DNA from: Candidatus Nitrosopumilus sp.
GTDB taxonomy: Archaea; Thermoproteota; Nitrososphaeria; Nitrososphaerales; Nitrosopumilaceae
Direction of reading: 5' to 3'
Length of the DNA stretch: 41,426 nucleotides
Assembly: GCA_028351415.1 (NCBI GenBank)
Contig: JAOMJV010000008.1
Span: 1 to 41,426 of the forward strand
This document shows positions 26,024 through 38,995 of this stretch, one piece after another; positions within the stretch are counted from its first letter, which is position 1; each line of letters starts with the position of its first letter. The notes beneath the pieces are model-generated. The model saw only the letters and a list, made by a program, of their open reading frames with translations. It did not search any database and had not been told where the DNA came from. The position numbers were made by a program, and so were the translations under genes.

Positions 26024-26578
26024 ATGAAACTTAACGTATTTTTAATAATTACAATGGTTTCAATCTTTGCTGTTTCTGCAATTGGTCAATCTGCTTTTGG
26101 ATATGGTGGCCCTCCTGCAAATAACTCTGCAAATAACTACGCTGTAGAAATTATGTCTGATCAAGAATCCTATACTCTTGGAGAATCCGTGATGTTTACT
26201 GGTTCTGTAAATAAAATTGATGATGATCGTTCTTTGAGAATCTCTGTTTTTGATTCTAGTAATAATTTAATCATAACTAAAAAAACACCTGTTGATACTT
26301 ATGGTAAATTCTCTTACACTGTTGTATTAAACGAAAAATTTTCTGATGGAAAATATATTGTAAAATCTCAATATGGAAATTCTAAATCAACTGTTAACAC
26401 GTCTTCTTTTATGATTACTGCTGGAAATAACTCTACAATGACTTCAAATGTGTCTGAAATCCCTGTGTGGATTAAGAACAATGCAGGATGGTGGGCTGAC
26501 GGTTCCATTGATGATGCTTCATTTGTACAGGGGATTCAGTTCTTAGTTAAAGAAGGATTTATGAAAATTACCAATTAA
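26024..26578 (+). CDS. Secreted protein with MG2-like domain and WIKNNAGWW motif
   Basis: A signal peptide (MKLNVFLIITMVSIFAVS...) is followed by one Ig-like β-domain (about 40-130: DQESYTLGESVMFTGSV...GKFSYTVVL) of the MG2/extracellular-polysaccharide-binding type. The C-terminal ~35 residues carry IPVWIKNNAGWWADGSIDD, a short module that recurs in many secreted thaumarchaeal proteins. It is probably cell-surface or exported; function unknown. Its last bases overlap the convergent gene. Confidence 0.82.
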   Translation: MKLNVFLIITMVSIFAVSAIGQSAFGYGGPPANNSANNYAVEIMSDQESYTLGESVMFTGSVNKIDDDRSLRISVFDSSNNLIITKKTPVDTYGKFSYTVVLNEKFSDGKYIVKSQYGNSKSTVNTSSFMITAGNNSTMTSNVSEIPVWIKNNAGWWADGSIDDASFVQGIQFLVKEGFMKITN

Positions 26579-31638: not shown

Positions 31639-31793
31639 AGTAATATGCTCATTACCTCATCTTTTATTTGTTTTTCTTAACCTCATTTAGATAAAAATAA
31701 AAATTATGGCGTTATCTTTTCTAAATTTTTGTATAGTGCCAAATCTTGAATCTACACAGTTGACCTAAAATACTAATTTTTTAAAAAAATGAC

Positions 31794-32521: not shown

Positions 32522-32707
32522 CTAATCTTTTTTCTTACTTCTAGGCTTTGTTCTTAAAACTGCTTTACAACAAATACACCTAACATCATCTATGGATAAG
32601 AAAATTCCACAAAATGTGCATCTTTTTTGTCCAATTTCATACCTAATTTTGTTGGGAACCGGGTCTGCCCGATATCTTGTACAAATGTTTCTACAAGTTC
32701 TACCCAA
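32522..32707 (-). CDS. Small basic zinc-finger protein (61 aa)
   Basis: The protein has KRCTFCGIFLS and VRCICCKAVLR, two C-x2-C pairs of a zinc ribbon, with further Cys at the N-terminus and a KPRSKKKD basic tail. It starts with TTG inside the last codons of the TFB gene (8-bp overlap) and is probably translated from the same transcript. Possible nucleic-acid binder; its link to TFB is by position only. Confidence 0.65.
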   Translation of the reverse strand: MGRTCRNICTRYRADPVPNKIRYEIGQKRCTFCGIFLSIDDVRCICCKAVLRTKPRSKKKD

Positions 32708-33611
32708 TTTTCACATCTCCTATTTTCATTACTATCTCTTTTCTTCTTTCTCTGATTGTGACGGCACTGATTCCTGAGATTTTTGAAATTTTTAACTGCG
32801 AAACACCTTCAACTGTTATAGTTGATGCAAGGTATACTGCAGCGGCTGCCATGGCCATTGGATTTTTACTTGCTGAAACTTGTTTTTTTGCACACAAATC
32901 TAATATTTTAAATGCCAATCTTTGTGTTTTTTCAGATAGCACCAATCCTTTTGAAATTCTTGTGACAAATTCTGATGGCGAATATGCTTCAGGGCTCAAG
33001 TCTAATTCTTTGGCAAGAAATCTATACGTTCTTTGCAACACTTTTTTCTTGATATTTCCTGCATCTACAACGTCCTGAAGTGTTCTAGGTGTATCTGTAA
33101 TTCTGCAAGTAATGTAAATTGTTGCACACAACATTGCGGTTGTAGATCTACCTGCTAGAATTTTTCTTGCTGCAATTTTTCTAAACAAATATGCTGTTTC
33201 CTCCACAACTGATTCAGGCAATCCTAACTTTGAACTAATTGCATCTAACAGTATGAATGCTTTTTGAAATGATTTAGAGGATACTGCTGAGCGACTGTTT
33301 CTGTCCCACATTCTTAATCTGTAGAACATCCTTCTGTTTTCTAATGACAATGGTTTTCCTGTAACATCTCTGTCCTTGGCTTCGATTATTGTTGATAGTC
33401 CCATGTCAATCATTTTCAATGATCTTTTTGCACCCACTCTGGAATTATTCATATAATCATTTGGATTCGAACCAACTGATTCAGAACCTTGATCTACTAC
33501 TTGGTCTGATGATACGATGCCACAACTACCGCATGCAATTTCACCGGTATATGCATCTGTGATCATTTCATTTTTTTTACAATTTTTTTGATGGATTAAT
33601 TCAGTTAACAT
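32700..33611 (-). CDS. tfb: Transcription initiation factor B (TFB), copy 2
   Basis: The 303-aa TFB paralog retains the ribbon cysteines only partly: CKKNEMITDAYTGEIACGSCG, with the first pair reduced to one Cys (HQKNCKKN). It keeps the B-finger-like DMGLSTII segment and two cyclin repeats (AGRSTTAMLCATIYITCR and NPMAMAAAAVYLASTI). Multiple TFBs allow promoter selection in these archaea. A TATA-like TTTAAATA at 33633-33640 (minus) lies 29 bp ahead of the ATG. It borders the B12-regulator cluster, and a degenerate copy of that cluster's octamer lies in its promoter. Confidence 0.9.
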   Translation of the reverse strand: MLTELIHQKNCKKNEMITDAYTGEIACGSCGIVSSDQVVDQGSESVGSNPNDYMNNSRVGAKRSLKMIDMGLSTIIEAKDRDVTGKPLSLENRRMFYRLRMWDRNSRSAVSSKSFQKAFILLDAISSKLGLPESVVEETAYLFRKIAARKILAGRSTTAMLCATIYITCRITDTPRTLQDVVDAGNIKKKVLQRTYRFLAKELDLSPEAYSPSEFVTRISKGLVLSEKTQRLAFKILDLCAKKQVSASKNPMAMAAAAVYLASTITVEGVSQLKISKISGISAVTIRERRKEIVMKIGDVKIG

Positions 33612-33632: not shown

Positions 33633-33667
33633 TATTTAAAAGACCAAAAATTCCTTATCTAGTGGTA
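33633..33667 (-). promoter_or_regulatory. TFB-2 promoter with degenerate octamer
   Basis: On the minus strand TACCACTA (33667 to 33660) differs from TGGCACTA at two positions and lies 26 bp upstream of the TATA-like TTTAAATA (33640 to 33633). The spacing nearly equals that in the four cluster promoters, so weak co-regulation is possible. Confidence 0.35.
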
Positions 33668-33702
33668 ATATGGGCAAAAATAACTATTTTTTTATACTTT
33701 TT

Positions 33703-33768
33703 TAGCACTAGGTTATTTTTATTTTTATTCATGGCACTAGTTTTTTTTGAATTATTTCTTTTTATAAA
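33703..33768 (+). promoter_or_regulatory. Cluster promoter A: TGGCACTA operator plus TATA
   Basis: TGGCACTA at 33732-33739 has its first G 28 bp before TATA box TTTATAAA (33761-33768), which lies 28 bp before the TTG start at 33789. A further TAGCACTA at 33703-33710 is 29 bp upstream of the first in the same orientation, near three helical turns. Confidence 0.7.
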
Positions 33769-33788
33769 AAATTCAGTAAAAAAGTGTA

Positions 33789-34148
33789 TTGCCACATATC
33801 GTGTTAGATGCAAGTTTGAATCTTTTTGATTTCTCTGTATTGTTTACTCCAATTCTTGAGAAATCACCTTTGATTAGAATTCAAAACATGTATGTTGAGT
33901 CTACTGGAATCAGTGCTTTATTTTCTGTAGTTGTAATTGATGAATCTCATCATGAATTTTTTATTCATGTGTCATCTGGAAAGGACAGGACTACAATTCG
34001 ATTGTTGCCTCTAACTGATCCTGTAAAAACTGATTCAGTAAAGAAATCCTTGGCTCTACTCTGTTTACAAATTCAAAAACACTATCCTAGCATGAGTGTT
34101 ACCAAATCAAATTTATGGGATTATCTGCCAAAAAAAATAGTTAATTGA
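33789..34148 (+). CDS. Hypothetical protein of the B12-regulator cluster (119 aa)
   Basis: Begins MPHIVLDASLNLFDFSVLF and is a soluble α/β protein of about 119 residues, with a His-rich VVVIDESHHEFFIHVSSGKD strand pair. I do not recognise the family. The TTG start at 33789 is fixed by the TATA box 28 bp upstream (leaderless). The next gene overlaps its stop by 4 bp, so the two are co-translated. Its promoter carries the shared octamer, which places it in the putative regulon. Confidence 0.7.
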   Translation: MPHIVLDASLNLFDFSVLFTPILEKSPLIRIQNMYVESTGISALFSVVVIDESHHEFFIHVSSGKDRTTIRLLPLTDPVKTDSVKKSLALLCLQIQKHYPSMSVTKSNLWDYLPKKIVN

Positions 34149-34585
34149 CTGTTTGTAATCTAGTACAAAAAAGTAATTTAAATTGCAATGCTATTTTTAA
34201 AATCAGCACTGATGTAGAAAATTTTCATAAAATAATGCCAAAATATTTTAAATCTTTAGTCGTGATTAGTGATTCATTGAATGAAAAAATTGTTTCAGAA
34301 TCCATACATTTCTTGGGCAGAAAAATTAAAATTAAAACTAAGCATGTTATTTTAAAACCCAATGTACACAAGGTGTTTATTTTAGATGGTCCTGTGAGGG
34401 GTACTTCTTTTATTGAAACATACAATTCAAGTTTGTCTGGAACCGATATTTCCATTTTGGTGGATTTAAAACTTCATGGACTTCTTAAATTAATTCCATT
34501 TTTAAAATTTTTTCTACTAAAAAGAATGAATTCTGTTATGTCTGAATTCATTACATGTGCTGAAATTTATTCTAAATCTAACTAA
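34145..34585 (+). CDS. SRPBCC (polyketide-cyclase/START-like) protein
   Basis: The 146-aa protein shows the SRPBCC layout: an initial strand then FKISTDVENFHKIMPKYFKS, a series of β-strands (KIKIKTKHVILKP, VRGTSFIETYN, TDISILVDLKL) and a long C-terminal helix (LKRMNSVMSEFITCAEIY). Such folds bind hydrophobic ligands (quinones, lipids, polyketides). TTG start, overlapping the previous stop by 4 bp. SRPBCC genes also occur in bacterial light-induced clusters, as far as I recall; the ligand here is unknown. Confidence 0.75.
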   Translation: MTVCNLVQKSNLNCNAIFKISTDVENFHKIMPKYFKSLVVISDSLNEKIVSESIHFLGRKIKIKTKHVILKPNVHKVFILDGPVRGTSFIETYNSSLSGTDISILVDLKLHGLLKLIPFLKFFLLKRMNSVMSEFITCAEIYSKSN

Positions 34586-34591
34586 ATTCAT

Positions 34592-34634
34592 ATTTAGTTG
34601 GCACTATTCAATTTAGTTAGGCTCTATTAAATAG
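34592..34634 (+). promoter_or_regulatory. Cluster promoter B: tandem operator plus TATA
   Basis: TGGCACTA at 34599-34606 lies in ATTTAGTTGGCACTATT, followed by an imperfect direct copy ATTTAGTTAGGCTCTATT (34611-34628) that runs into the TATA box TTAAATAG (34627-34634). First G to TATA is 27 bp and TATA to ATG (34656) is 29 bp. The 43 bp share 31 identities with promoter D (36932-36974). Confidence 0.75.
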
Positions 34635-34655
34635 AAAAATATACAACAACTTTTG

Positions 34656-36011
34656 ATGTCTCTCCCTACAATCATTATTGGTGCAGGCGTGGGTGGTTTA
34701 ACTACTGGTGCTTTGTTAGCCCATGACGGTAATGATGTAATTGTTTTAGAAAAATCATCCAATTTAGGCGGACGAACTGCGTCGATGAAATTTAAAAATC
34801 ATATTCTTGATAATGGATTCCACATAATGCCTTTTTATAAAAAATCTGCAATTTTTACTATTTTAAAAAATTTAGGCATTGAATCTAGATTAAAACTGGC
34901 AAAAGTTGATGACATTGCATTTTATGCGGCAACAGGATTTCATATCTATCCCAAAGGCATGGTTGATTTACTTCGCCTATCTTTAATTCCTTTTAAAAGT
35001 AGGATTAGACTTTTAAAATTATTACTTCCTCTAGCGTTTTCTTCAATTGAAAAAACTGAATTGTGGGATAACATACCTCTAACAAAAATAACTCATGATT
35101 TGGATGCTGACACAAATGCTTTTTTTGAAGCTGTATGCATGCTAGCCTTTGCCGACACTGCTGACCATATTTCATTAGGAGAATTTGCTCGAACAATTAT
35201 CCGTGCAAACCCGTTTAAGGGCGGAACGAGTGAATTTGCGTACCCTGATGGGGGTGGATATGATTCAATATGCCATGTTCTTGGAGATTTTATTTTAGAA
35301 AATAACGGGATCATTAAAACCAAAGAATCTGTAAAAAAAATAATTGTTAAAGATTCTAAAGTTACCGGTGTTGTTGTTAATGATTCTTTAAATTCTGAAA
35401 AAATAATTCCTACAAACTCTGTGGTGGTTTCATATCCTGCATACACTGCACTAAATCAATTATTTGAAAAAAATATTATTGATACAAAATTTGTTGAAAA
35501 AATTGATAAATTAAATAAAACAACTTCTGTTGTCGAAGTACATTTTGCATTAAATTCACAAATTGATACTCGCCAAGTTGTATTTCCAGTAGGCAAGGAT
35601 TATGTTACTAAGGGCATATTTTTCATATCCAATATCACTCCTTCTGTTTCACCTGTTGGGGAGCATTTGATAATTGCAGGAACTCCCGTGTCATCTGCAG
35701 ATACTGAAGATTCTAAAAAAGTCAAAAATATTGTTATCAAAATGAAGGAAGAGATATCCTCGATTTACCCTAAATTTGACTCTGCACTGCTCTGGGAACG
35801 TCCTATGGCCTGGAAGTTAGTTGAATCTGTTGTTAAGGAACCTGGTAAAGTTTGGAAGTCTAAGATGCCTCATCAAATTCCTGGCATTGAAGGTTTATTT
35901 TTTGTTGGTGATTCTACAATTAGCTATGGTATTGGAACTGATTCTGCCGCACACAGTTCTATTTTGTGTCATCCAAAAATTAAATCTTTTTTAAATTCTT
36001 CAATTAACTAG
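34656..36011 (+). CDS. Phytoene-desaturase-like FAD oxidoreductase
   Basis: The 451-aa protein belongs to the CrtI/amine-oxidase-type flavoproteins. N-terminal GAGVGG (9-14) with Glu32 ending β2 and LGGRT (38-42) bind the FAD; C-terminal GLFFVGDSTISYGIGTDSA (from about 415) is the second FAD contact. The middle substrate domain is not specific enough to name a substrate: carotenoid, lipid or isoprenoid are options, and no phytoene synthase is in the window. ATG 34656 is chosen over TTG 34653 by TATA spacing (29 bp). Its stop shares CTAG with the stop of the convergent B12 regulator. Confidence 0.82.
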   Translation: MSLPTIIIGAGVGGLTTGALLAHDGNDVIVLEKSSNLGGRTASMKFKNHILDNGFHIMPFYKKSAIFTILKNLGIESRLKLAKVDDIAFYAATGFHIYPKGMVDLLRLSLIPFKSRIRLLKLLLPLAFSSIEKTELWDNIPLTKITHDLDADTNAFFEAVCMLAFADTADHISLGEFARTIIRANPFKGGTSEFAYPDGGGYDSICHVLGDFILENNGIIKTKESVKKIIVKDSKVTGVVVNDSLNSEKIIPTNSVVVSYPAYTALNQLFEKNIIDTKFVEKIDKLNKTTSVVEVHFALNSQIDTRQVVFPVGKDYVTKGIFFISNITPSVSPVGEHLIIAGTPVSSADTEDSKKVKNIVIKMKEEISSIYPKFDSALLWERPMAWKLVESVVKEPGKVWKSKMPHQIPGIEGLFFVGDSTISYGIGTDSAAHSSILCHPKIKSFLNSSIN

Positions 36012-36853
36012 TGTTGTATTCGTAGGATTTTTGGAATTTCATCAAGTCTAGCATCTTTTATTATTTTTCCCTCAAATTTAGGAACATCATCTGCTTGTAA
36101 CGCATAACCTCCGACGAGTATTGGGATTTTACTGTGCTCTCTGATTTTTTTTGCCAATCTTTGACCTGCTGTGATGTTGTCATTAATTGTAATTGAAATT
36201 AGAACTATGTCTGGTTTTTTCATATTTATGAATTCTAGTATTGCATCACTTGGAATCGAAGTTCCCATGTTGAATACTTTGAAACCTTTGATTGTCAGAT
36301 ATGTTTCAAGCACATCGCACCCAATGTGATGTTCCTCCCCCACTGGTACACACAGCAATACTTTCTTTTTATTTCCAGAACCTGAAACCTGCTCCATGAT
36401 TATTTTTACTAATGTTTGAGCTACATTACTTGCAACGTGTTCTGTCGCAATTGCTAATTTCCCTGTCTCCCAATCTGAACCTATTTTGCTCATTACGGGT
36501 CTGAGAATTTTATCAAAGAAATCTGATATGTTGAATATCTGCACGTATTCTTTGTAAATTTTTATACATTCTTCTATATTTCCATCTGTTAATTTTTTAA
36601 ACAACTGTTGCCTTGATCTTTTTGTAGCGTCCTCTCTTTTTTGTATGTCTTGCGGGTTGTAGGATGCTAACACCGATAGAATTTTAGCATCATTTCTAAA
36701 TTCAATTGGAATGTCATCTTTTACCACTAGTGATGCCTTTCCAAGATATTTTATTATTTCTTGTTTTGATGTCTTTTTTTTAGAATCCCAAACACTTTTC
36801 ACTAAATACAGATATTGCTCAGATTTTACTTTTTTAAACCTGATATACACCAT
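36008..36853 (-). CDS. CarH-like B12-binding regulator with novel N-terminal domain
   Basis: The 281-aa protein ends in a full CarH/MtaC-type cobalamin module. A helical bundle (about 85-155) has W128-x9-E138-H139 in IGSDWETGKLAIATEHVAS, the adenosylcobalamin-capping signature of CarH. The Rossmann B12 domain (about 163-280) has E173-x-H175-x2-G178 (VPVGEEHHIGCD; His175 is the likely lower ligand), FNMGTSIPSDAIL and ILVGGYAL. Instead of a MerR helix-turn-helix the first ~45 residues read YLYLVKSVWDSKKKTSKQE then IIKYLGK, a small β-domain also seen at the N-terminus of some transposases, possibly DNA-binding. Glu129 replaces the second His used by Thermus CarH after light. A light- or B12-responsive regulator is inferred. 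Confidence 0.78.
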   Translation of the reverse strand: MVYIRFKKVKSEQYLYLVKSVWDSKKKTSKQEIIKYLGKASLVVKDDIPIEFRNDAKILSVLASYNPQDIQKREDATKRSRQQLFKKLTDGNIEECIKIYKEYVQIFNISDFFDKILRPVMSKIGSDWETGKLAIATEHVASNVAQTLVKIIMEQVSGSGNKKKVLLCVPVGEEHHIGCDVLETYLTIKGFKVFNMGTSIPSDAILEFINMKKPDIVLISITINDNITAGQRLAKKIREHSKIPILVGGYALQADDVPKFEGKIIKDARLDEIPKILRIQH

Positions 36854-36873
36854 GAACTTTTTTTATATTGTTT

Positions 36874-36910
36874 GTATATAACATAATGGTAATATTATTT
36901 TCTAGTGCCA
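36874..36910 (-). promoter_or_regulatory. Cluster promoter C (regulator gene): operator plus TATA
   Basis: On the minus strand TGGCACTA (36910 to 36903) has its first G 28 bp before TATA box TTATATAC (36881 to 36874), which is 28 bp before the ATG at 36853. With promoter D it makes an inverted pair of octamers in the divergent region. Confidence 0.75.
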
Positions 36911-36931
36911 TCAAATTTATTTTTAAAATTG

Positions 36932-36974
36932 ATTTATTTGGCACTATGCTAATCTAGTATTCTCTGTTAAATAT
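36932..36974 (+). promoter_or_regulatory. Cluster promoter D: operator plus TATA
   Basis: TGGCACTA at 36939-36946 lies in ATTTATTTGGCACTATG, 27 bp (first G) before TATA box TTAAATAT (36967-36974); the ATG at 36996 is 29 bp further. The whole 43 bp aligns without gaps to promoter B with 31 matches. Confidence 0.75.
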
Positions 36975-36995: not shown

Positions 36996-37187
36996 ATGGC
37001 AGAAGAACAAGAATGGGCTAACCTACTTGCTGAAATCTTTGACAAACTTACACAAAAACATGCCTCAATCACTTATGATTTTGACAATCTTGAGATGGCC
37101 GGTAAAATAGTCAAAGAGGGCGAAGTAGTACCAACAGGAACTGTTTCCCTTAGCGGGAAACTGACTATTACAGCAAAAGAACTTTGA
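36996..37187 (+). CDS. Small cluster protein (63 aa)
   Basis: An N-terminal helix (EEQEWANLLAEIFDKLTQKH) is followed by four short β-strands (SITYDFDNLEMA, GTVSLSGKLTITAKEL). I recognise no family. It is the first gene of the three-gene unit driven by promoter D and ends six bases before the start of the next. The TATA spacing and ATG make the start secure. Confidence 0.7.
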   Translation: MAEEQEWANLLAEIFDKLTQKHASITYDFDNLEMAGKIVKEGEVVPTGTVSLSGKLTITAKEL

Positions 37188-37193
37188 GTGTGG

Positions 37194-37565
37194 ATGACAA
37201 TGAAAAACTTTGATATTCCCGCTAATTTTTTATCTTATCTAGATACTGGCAAGTTAAGCATAACTTGCAATGACTCACCTACAGTTAATTTTCATGTTGA
37301 TGGAAGTACAAAAATAATTGATATAATCGACATACCCATTGAACTTACAAAAATGCCTGGTCTCTTAAAGCAACTTTCTGAAGCTAAAGAGCTTGCAAAA
37401 GATTTGGCACAGAAAAAAACTACTATAGAGGTTAGACTGCGCGGTGATACCGTATTGAAACTTGGCGAAAAAGCAAACCCTAAACTTGCAAAAATTATCA
37501 CTCTTAGCAGTAACATTGAAATCACCGATTTAAGAAAATTAAAAAAATTGAGTGATGAATTTTAA
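37194..37565 (+). CDS. Cluster protein with β-α-β pattern (123 aa)
   Basis: Reads MTMKNFDIPANFLSYLDTGK with strands KLSITCNDSPTVNFHV, a helix LLKQLSEAKELAKDLAQK and then TIEVRLRGDTVLKLGE. It is soluble, with no catalytic motif I know. Starts at GTG 37188, ATG 37194 or ATG 37200 are possible. It lies between the 63-aa gene and the SDR gene, with 2 bp to the latter, so the three form one operon. Confidence 0.7.
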   Translation: MTMKNFDIPANFLSYLDTGKLSITCNDSPTVNFHVDGSTKIIDIIDIPIELTKMPGLLKQLSEAKELAKDLAQKKTTIEVRLRGDTVLKLGEKANPKLAKIITLSSNIEITDLRKLKKLSDEF

Positions 37566-37567
37566 AC

Positions 37568-38995
37568 ATGAGTGACAATTTTTCTCAAAAAAATGCCTAT
37601 GATATTCTGGTAACTGGTTCGAGTGGTTTTATCGGAAAAAAACTTTTGAACAAATTAACTGATTATGGATTTACAGTCACTGCGATGTCTAGATCAAAAT
37701 ATCCTGACACTCAAAACGTTAAACGTGTTCAAGCCGATGCATTTGACGTTAACTCTTTGATTGCCGCTACAGAAGGTATTGAAACTGCATTTTATTTGCT
37801 TCATTCCATGGAAGGTTCAAAAAAGGAATGGGCTGAATTTGCAACTAGGGAGAAGCAGCAGGCTGAAAATTTCTTAAAGGCTGCAACTGATTCTGGTGTA
37901 AAGAGAATCATATACTTGGGTGGATTGGTTAACGAAGGTCTAGAGTTATCAAAACATATGAAAAGTAGACACGACGTGGGAAAGATTTTGGCAAGTGGGG
38001 ATATCCCTGTTACTGAATTGAGAGCATCCGTTATCGTTGGTGCGGAAGGCGGATCTTATGCTATGCTTAGGTATCTTGTTGAAAGATTGCCTCTAATGGT
38101 TTGTCCAAAATGGGTCAAATCCCAAACACAACCAATTGCTGTTGACAATGTAGTTGATTATCTGATAGGTTCAATGAAAAATCATGAAACCGCAGGAAAA
38201 ATTCTAGAAATCGGTGGGCCTGAAACAATGACGTATGAACAATTAATGAGACTGTACTCTTCAATTCTTAATAGAAATTTGAACGTAATTCAAATTCCAT
38301 TTCTAACCCCTAGACTCTCTTCGTATTGGATTGATTTAGTAACTCCAGTTAAAGCCTCTTTGGCAAGACCTCTGGTTGACAGTCTTGTACATGATTCTGT
38401 AGTTAAAGATGATTCTGCACAAAAATTGATTCCAGTCCAACTGGCATATATGACTCAGGCAATTCAAACTGCTAGAGAAGAAGCAAAAGTTTTCAATTCA
38501 ATTTCTAAATCTGAAGGAGAAAAAACTTCTTACAAAATGAATCAGAAAATTCTCTTAATTACATTGTGTGCTATGGCTTTTGTTGGTACGACATACTACT
38601 GGCTAGATGACAGATCTGACGTCTGGCAAATACCGTGGTTAGCTGGTTCAGCTATTTGGTATGCCGCAATTCTTTTTGCTATTTCTTTTGTAAGGCAAAA
38701 GGCTAGACTAGGTTATTTGATTGGCGGTTTGTTGTCATGGGTCACTCTTGCATTTTGGCTATTTGACAATTTCTATGTTGTATTTGAACTCTCACTGGTT
38801 GCATCTGAACCAAGTTTGGAAATCACAATCAGAAATTTCATTGGTGCTGCACTCGCTGGATTGGCAATATTCTCATCACACAACGTATTTCATAAAGTAA
38901 GAGTCTATCAAGTTAGGGGCAAACCTGTGTCTGAATCTGCCTCATCTGAAGTTCCAACTGGTGCACGACCTGTATACAACACCAATTTTGCCTAA
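37568..38995 (+). CDS. NAD(P)-binding SDR protein with membrane tail
   Basis: The first ~300 residues form an atypical/extended SDR: TGSSGFIG (16-23), YLLHSMEGSKKEW, RIIYLGGLVNE in place of the usual YxxxK region, PVTELRASVIVGAEG and GKILEIGGPETMTYEQL. This resembles the NDUFA9-like/nucleoside-epimerase relatives common in bacterial light-responsive clusters (recalled, not checked). From about residue 324 (MNQKILLITLCAMAFVG) at least four hydrophobic spans follow up to about 445, ending in a soluble tail. A lipid, quinone or isoprenoid substrate at the membrane is plausible but unproven. Confidence 0.82.
   Translation: MSDNFSQKNAYDILVTGSSGFIGKKLLNKLTDYGFTVTAMSRSKYPDTQNVKRVQADAFDVNSLIAATEGIETAFYLLHSMEGSKKEWAEFATREKQQAENFLKAATDSGVKRIIYLGGLVNEGLELSKHMKSRHDVGKILASGDIPVTELRASVIVGAEGGSYAMLRYLVERLPLMVCPKWVKSQTQPIAVDNVVDYLIGSMKNHETAGKILEIGGPETMTYEQLMRLYSSILNRNLNVIQIPFLTPRLSSYWIDLVTPVKASLARPLVDSLVHDSVVKDDSAQKLIPVQLAYMTQAIQTAREEAKVFNSISKSEGEKTSYKMNQKILLITLCAMAFVGTTYYWLDDRSDVWQIPWLAGSAIWYAAILFAISFVRQKARLGYLIGGLLSWVTLAFWLFDNFYVVFELSLVASEPSLEITIRNFIGAALAGLAIFSSHNVFHKVRVYQVRGKPVSESASSEVPTGARPVYNTNFA

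Follow-up and report, generated by a model that had tools for sequence, protein, structure and literature searches.

A conserved promoter site in Nitrosopumilus as the candidate operator of a CarH-like B12 light sensor

Introduction

CarH and the class I LitR proteins of Thermus, Bacillus, and Myxococcus are MerR-type repressors that act as adenosylcobalamin (AdoCbl) photoreceptors. CarH photoreceptors are recognized by two motifs, Wx9EH and D/ExHx2G-x41-SxT/V-x22-27-GG (PMC9304148). Here, we analyze a 41,426-nucleotide stretch of DNA from a Candidatus Nitrosopumilus genome (contig C49 of genome G000, Nitrosopumilaceae), which we call the window. It contains a gene cluster around a B12-binding protein that carries both motifs, and four promoters of this cluster share the octamer TGGCACTA. 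Judging from sequence comparison, the longer motif to which this octamer belongs, TT[A/G]GCACTA[G/T], is probably the operator of the adjacent CarH-like light sensor, whose N-terminal domain is not of the MerR type, and probably marks a photorepair regulon.

Light inhibits ammonia oxidation by marine ammonia-oxidizing archaea, which are very abundant. We found no explanation in the open-access literature of how these organisms sense light, and no report there of CarH-type sensors in Thaumarchaeota, subscription papers being outside that search. Epipelagic clades of marine Thaumarchaeota are reported to have photolyases (PMC9239080). In Pseudomonas, the PhrB-LitR-RudS operon is light-controlled, and RudS removes 4-thiouridine (s4U), a near-UV-sensitive tRNA residue (PMC11417400).

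Results and Discussion

A rigidly spaced octamer marks the promoters of the cluster

The window holds five copies of TGGCACTA. Four of them lie between positions 33700 and 37000, each with its first base exactly 57 bp upstream of a start codon (Table 1). A TATA-like element begins 28–29 bp after the first T of these octamers and hence 28–29 bp before the start codon, which is the distance expected for leaderless archaeal promoters. An earlier note on this DNA had reported the same four positions, with the first G of the octamer 27–28 bp upstream of the TATA box and the TATA box 28–29 bp from the start; all four were found again, and both distances were correct on re-measurement. Its rough estimate of less than one such 8-mer per window agrees with the mean of 0.74 in 100 dinucleotide shuffles, where the maximum was 4 and none reached 5. 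Its view that four identically spaced copies are not chance is borne out by 20,000 Monte Carlo draws of five random sites, in none of which did four share one offset to an open reading frame start.

Two of the same note's statements needed widening. It had described a cluster with four octamer promoters, which we recovered, but the divergent gene for a paralog of transcription factor B (TFB) carries a decayed site at its promoter and makes five marked promoters; in relatives, an intact TAGCACTA (TTAGCACTAG) stands where the window has the decayed TACCACTA. The octamer itself is real but proved to be only one form of TT[A/G]GCACTA[G/T].

Genome-wide work consisted of pattern searches plus single stretches. 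Exact octamers numbered 22 in the source genome vs 14 for the reversed control. Those outside the cluster lie nearly all within reading frames, and a start codon 57 bp away is seen for only two more, both on contig C14. The fifth copy in the window, at 31734–31741 on the minus strand, is intergenic, between the gene for a peptidyl-prolyl isomerase (31638, minus) and a 225-aa gene (31794, plus). We rejected it as a promoter site, as it has no start or TATA box at the correct spacing. In genome G080 (L238), the ortholog of the 225-aa gene is preceded by an TAGCACTAG site with near-correct spacing.

The site and its spacing are conserved across the family

A profile was built from the B12-gene neighborhoods of 40 loci, smaller loci, and 13 named Nitrosopumilus loci, using sites 55–59 bp from the ATG. 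The 173 distinct sites gave the consensus TT[A/G]GCACTA[G/T], then A/T-rich DNA, a weaker copy at +18/+19, and TTAWATA at +28; in relatives, TAGCACTA is a commoner form than TGGCACTA. Offsets of 56, 57, and 58 bp to the ATG occurred at 76, 71, and 18 sites, whereas every other offset between 20 and 149 bp had 0–8. The distance from octamer to TATA box was 28 or 29 bp in 164 of the 174 family promoters with an assigned TATA box.

In 54 of 173 promoters, the weaker copy lies 18/19 bp from the main site, on the TFB recognition element (BRE) and abutting the TATA box; its consensus in orthologs of the B12 promoter is TAGCATTA. The distal box is invariant, and many promoters, such as those of the TFB and the 119-aa gene, show no clear proximal copy. 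Some family promoters have further copies 24–43 bp upstream with loose spacing, as at window position 33703. The arrangement is that of an invariant distal box joined by a weaker, BRE-overlapping box in about a third of promoters, and both its repeat unit and its spacing are unlike those of the CarH operator.

For counting across the family, the pattern TRGCACTAN{47,50}ATG was too loose, with a substantial reversed-control background, and we replaced it with patterns that include the TATA box. The strict promoter pattern, TTRGCACTAKN{17,20}TTAWATA, had 208 matches in 62 of 151 family genomes, and its reversed control had one. These matches fell in 55 of the 68 genomes with the B12 protein (called present at E below 1e-40) vs 7 of the 83 without it (Fisher P = 8e-21, uncorrected for relatedness). 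The same association is visible within genera. In g1, the genus of the window, each of the 17 B12-positive genomes has 2–11 matches, against 1, 0, 0, 0, and 0 in the five negatives; in g14, positive genomes have 2–7 and negatives 0–1. Conservation in orthologous clusters had been set beforehand as a test; of the 13 named Nitrosopumilus loci, 12 have the site in front of the B12 gene, and so do most of the other regulator neighborhoods examined.

A separate stretch, TTRGCACTAG...CATTGCCTTAAATA, is conserved once per genome (G080 C1:216587, G098 C1:171198, G068 C1:208009, and G092 C1:1632000). Either another promoter of the regulon or conserved coding sequence could account for it.

The B12 protein combines a CarH-type sensor with another N-terminal domain

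The sensory part of the B12 protein has the CarH signature in full. Its four-helix bundle contains Wx9EH as W128-x9-E138-H139, invariant in 13 orthologs, and the B12 motif ExHx2G-x41-SxT-x25-GG is complete (E173/H175/G178, S220/T222, and G248/G249). For residues 81–267, the best NCBIfam match is CarH (E = 1.5e-15), at a score below that family's full-length cut-off. Pfam returns B12-binding families, and the matching PDB sequences are B12 photosensors including CarH. A Foldseek search with the protein model agrees, with CarH (E about 2e-11) and photocobilins as the best matches.

The N-terminal 59 residues are not MerR-like and had no match above chance in Pfam, NCBIfam, or PDB, and a search of PHROGs gave nothing solid either. 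They are nonetheless the best-conserved part of the protein, lysine-rich and with 18 invariant positions across 17 diverse homologs. The MerR domain is one defining feature of the CarH family and is missing here, so we do not class the protein as CarH. By its sequence, it would be a variant form of the B12-based photoregulators.

A second paralog of the regulator, present in a few genomes (L087, L088; genomes G077 and G119), has lost Wx9EH and kept the N-terminal domain and ExHxxG. In G119, genes neighboring this paralog carry the same sites.

The predicted targets read as a photorepair response

Outside the cluster, the correctly spaced site marks only a handful of genes in the source genome, among them a photolyase operon and RudS; the earlier note had held that a wide spread over unrelated promoters would speak against a cluster operator. 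On contig C14, a 184-aa gene is preceded by the site, and the gene downstream of it, after a gap of about 25 bp, encodes a DNA photolyase (Pfam FAD_binding_7, 1.4e-79); next comes a 182-aa gene, related to the 184-aa gene and with an operator of its own. A 133-aa gene also has a correctly spaced site. On contig C23, TAGCACTA lies 56 bp before the gene for a 322-aa TudS-DUF1722 fusion (L233:1600-2565), which is RudS, a tRNA s4U desulfidase. Among relatives, G017 has a photolyase directly behind its site-bearing B12 gene, and the site is found before a ferritin-like (Dps-type) gene in both G059 and G022.

The proposed regulon would comprise the B12 regulator itself, the flavin adenine dinucleotide (FAD)-dependent oxidoreductase, the operon ending in a short-chain dehydrogenase/reductase (SDR), the TFB paralog, the photolyase operon, and RudS. 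By predicted sites, it has the photorepair and photoprotection content that characterizes CarH and class I LitR regulons: photolyase, RudS, FAD oxidoreductase, and SDR, with the Dps-type ferritin added in relatives. The set reads as a light or photorepair response.

In many genomes, the operator, often with a clear proximal copy, also stands before the gene for a secreted-looking protein of about 300 aa with SWIKNNAGWW repeats (L053:1897-2841, G119, and orthologs). The window encodes a related repeat protein at 26024–26578, which has no site.

Table 1. Positions of the sites, promoter elements, and genes of the cluster, in window coordinates unless a locus is named
Feature	Position	Strand	Remarks
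Operator core TGGCACTA	33732..33739	+	57 bp before start 33789 (TTG) of 119-aa gene; site present in orthologous promoters
Extra upstream copy TAGCACTA	33703..33710	+	29 bp before main site; free spacing
TATA-like element, 119-aa gene	33760..33767	+	28/29 bp after octamer
Operator core TGGCACTA	34599..34606	+	57 bp before ATG 34656 of FAD oxidoreductase gene; conserved in orthologs
Degenerate proximal copy TTAGGCTCTA	34617..34626	+	Abuts TATA box
TATA box, FAD oxidoreductase	34627..34633	+	
Operator core TGGCACTA	36903..36910	-	57 bp before ATG 36853 of B12 regulator; predicted autoregulation
Degenerate proximal copy TACCATTA	36884..36891	-	Adjoins TATA box of B12 regulator
TATA box, B12 regulator	36875..36881	-	
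Operator core TGGCACTA	36939..36946	+	57 bp before ATG 36996 of 63-aa gene operon; conserved in orthologs
TATA box TTAAATA, 63-aa gene operon	36967..36973	+	
Decayed operator TACCACTA	33660..33667	-	56 bp before ATG 33611 of divergent TFB gene
CarH-like B12 photosensory regulator (putative)	36008..36853	-	59-aa N-terminal domain, four-helix bundle, Rossmann B12 domain
119-aa gene	33789..34148	+	No Pfam family; predicted target
146-aa gene	34145..34585	+	Overlaps end of 119-aa gene; no family above cut-off; predicted target
FAD-dependent oxidoreductase, HpnE/phytoene-desaturase-like	34656..36011	+	Predicted target
63-aa gene	36996..37187	+	First of operon; predicted target
122-125-aa gene	37188..37565	+	Same operon as 63-aa gene
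NmrA/SDR-type NAD(P)-binding protein	37568..38995	+	Last gene of 63-aa operon
TFB paralog	32700..33611	-	Predicted target, here with decayed site, and in relatives
DNA photolyase	L230:8593-9936 (G000 C14)	-	Apparent operon behind 184-aa gene (family not assigned)

Reading of the site and sign of regulation

We infer that the B12 protein binds the site through its N-terminal domain and that it responds to light. In the mechanism which we propose, an AdoCbl-loaded oligomer would occupy the strong distal site in the dark, reach the weak repeat over the BRE, and block TFB and the TATA-binding protein (TBP). In the light, the Co-C bond would break, the oligomer would dissociate, and the genes would be switched on. 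Dark repression with release by light is our first choice, if by a modest preference, because of the proximal copy's place on the BRE and because the CarH relatives repress in the dark.

Several points weigh against this account. The N-terminal domain has no recognizable DNA-binding fold, and we claim none for it because AlphaFold confidence there is low (two models). Genomes G041 and G101 have regulon-like sites and no detected B12 protein, perhaps as a result of assembly gaps. The promoters of distant B12 homologs, in genera g2, g9, and most of g19, are without the site. Co-occurrence alone is compatible with another co-inherited DNA-binding protein. Finally, the strongest site falls outside the expected footprint of TBP and TFB, a position more in keeping with an activator than with a repressor.

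The last point leads to the alternative that survives best, in which the same B12 protein, bound at about −57 to −48, would recruit TFB or RNA polymerase, with the fixed spacing needed for contact. Archaeal activators usually bind just upstream of the BRE, and this is where the site lies; its rigid distance to the TATA box, the invariance of the distal box, and the many promoters that do without a clear proximal copy all suit an activator. Activation, suggested in the earlier note, is one of two open readings, because the weaker second copy on the BRE and against the TATA box, present in about a third of promoters, also fits a repressor, with occlusion as its simple interpretation. The proximal copy is clearest at the B12 promoter, as would be expected of autorepression, and in the closest characterized relatives, CarH and LitR, it is the dark form that represses (PMC9304148). 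We regard activation as less probable than dark repression.

An unlinked DNA-binding protein that escaped detection and is co-inherited with the B12 protein might instead read the site, with the B12 protein acting indirectly, e.g. by protein contact. The lack of a known DNA-binding fold in the N-terminal domain would suit this explanation, as would the two genomes that have several sites and no detected B12 protein. It is unlikely, given that in several genera the B12 gene has the site at its own promoter and that the lysine-rich domain is the most conserved part of the protein and recurs in the paralog whose neighborhood has the same sites. An autoregulated neighbor is the parsimonious binder.

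The cluster's TFB paralog is a further candidate, and a very improbable one. If it bound the site, the marked promoters would be a class of their own, served by a TFB specific to them. Its gene is conserved beside the B12 cluster, within the genus its ortholog is confined to genomes that have both the B12 protein and the sites, and the sites keep a fixed distance from the TATA box. The sites are not confined to genomes with the TFB ortholog, however, and we rejected the paralog as the binder. Six genomes (G032, G105, G017, G034, G050, and G013) lack the ortholog, with best matches of 41–43%, the level of other TFBs, and keep the sites, including the one at the B12 promoter. At the level of genera, g17 lacks the ortholog and keeps the sites, and in G092 the TFB matches only as two overlapping pieces while sites are present. 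Moreover, TFB reads the BRE, and the site lies about 20 bp farther out; the TFB gene itself also carries a site. Because genomes without the ortholog keep the sites, even at the B12 gene's own promoter, the sites follow the B12 protein rather than the TFB paralog. Together with the co-occurrence counts, this backs the earlier note's choice of the B12 regulator as the protein for which the octamer is the best candidate operator. Given that family genomes have several to a dozen TFB genes and that the paralog is operator-marked in relatives, its role may be to pass the light signal on to additional promoters.

Accidental recurrence of the octamer, for which the reversed-control copies might speak, can be set aside in view of the window shuffles, the random draws, the shared offset, the conservation, and the 208:1 ratio of the strict pattern.

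Implications

On balance, we think it rather likely that marine ammonia-oxidizing archaea have a true B12 photoreceptor-regulator, in which a CarH-type sensor is joined to a previously undescribed DNA-binding domain and light control is adapted to TATA/BRE promoters, with a defined operator and a family-wide photorepair regulon. If so, B12-based transcriptional light switching, known in bacteria, would extend to archaea, with a DNA-binding domain that is apparently new. The sensor candidate, the defined operator, and the short target list provided by the analysis can be tested in cultured Nitrosopumilus. The operator may also serve as a sequence signature that separates light-adapted from dark-adapted lineages.

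Comparison with known systems

Ptr2- and GvpE-like archaeal activators share with our system a site just upstream of the BRE and TATA box at fixed spacing. They have no sequence relation to the B12 protein, whose sensor is a B12 domain.

The class II LitR regulons of Pseudomonas are similar in their targets, which include a photolyase (phrB), a short-chain dehydrogenase/epimerase, an FAD oxidoreductase, and RudS (PMC9758184, PMC11417400). Class II proteins have the four-helix bundle alone and work together with LOV proteins (PMC9758184), whereas the archaeal protein has both B12-binding domains and their motifs. The second archaeal paralog recalls CarA, the B12-independent CarH paralog of Myxococcus: CarA has lost the Trp of the motif (PMC9304148), and the archaeal paralog has lost Wx9EH. 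The two are independent lineages, and CarA retains the EH that the archaeal paralog does not.

The closest likeness is to CarH and class I LitR. The archaeal protein shares with them the four-helix bundle with Wx9EH and the Rossmann B12 domain with the full motif, as well as a neighborhood with predicted autoregulation and photoprotection genes among the targets, which in our case are predicted; its candidate operator may also be of the repeat type that reaches the promoter core. It differs in having a 59-aa N-terminal domain in place of the MerR winged helix, in its operator, a TRGCACTA direct repeat 18/19 bp apart where CarH uses 11-bp TnnACA repeats, and in its setting, as the archaeal regulator would act on TATA/BRE promoters.

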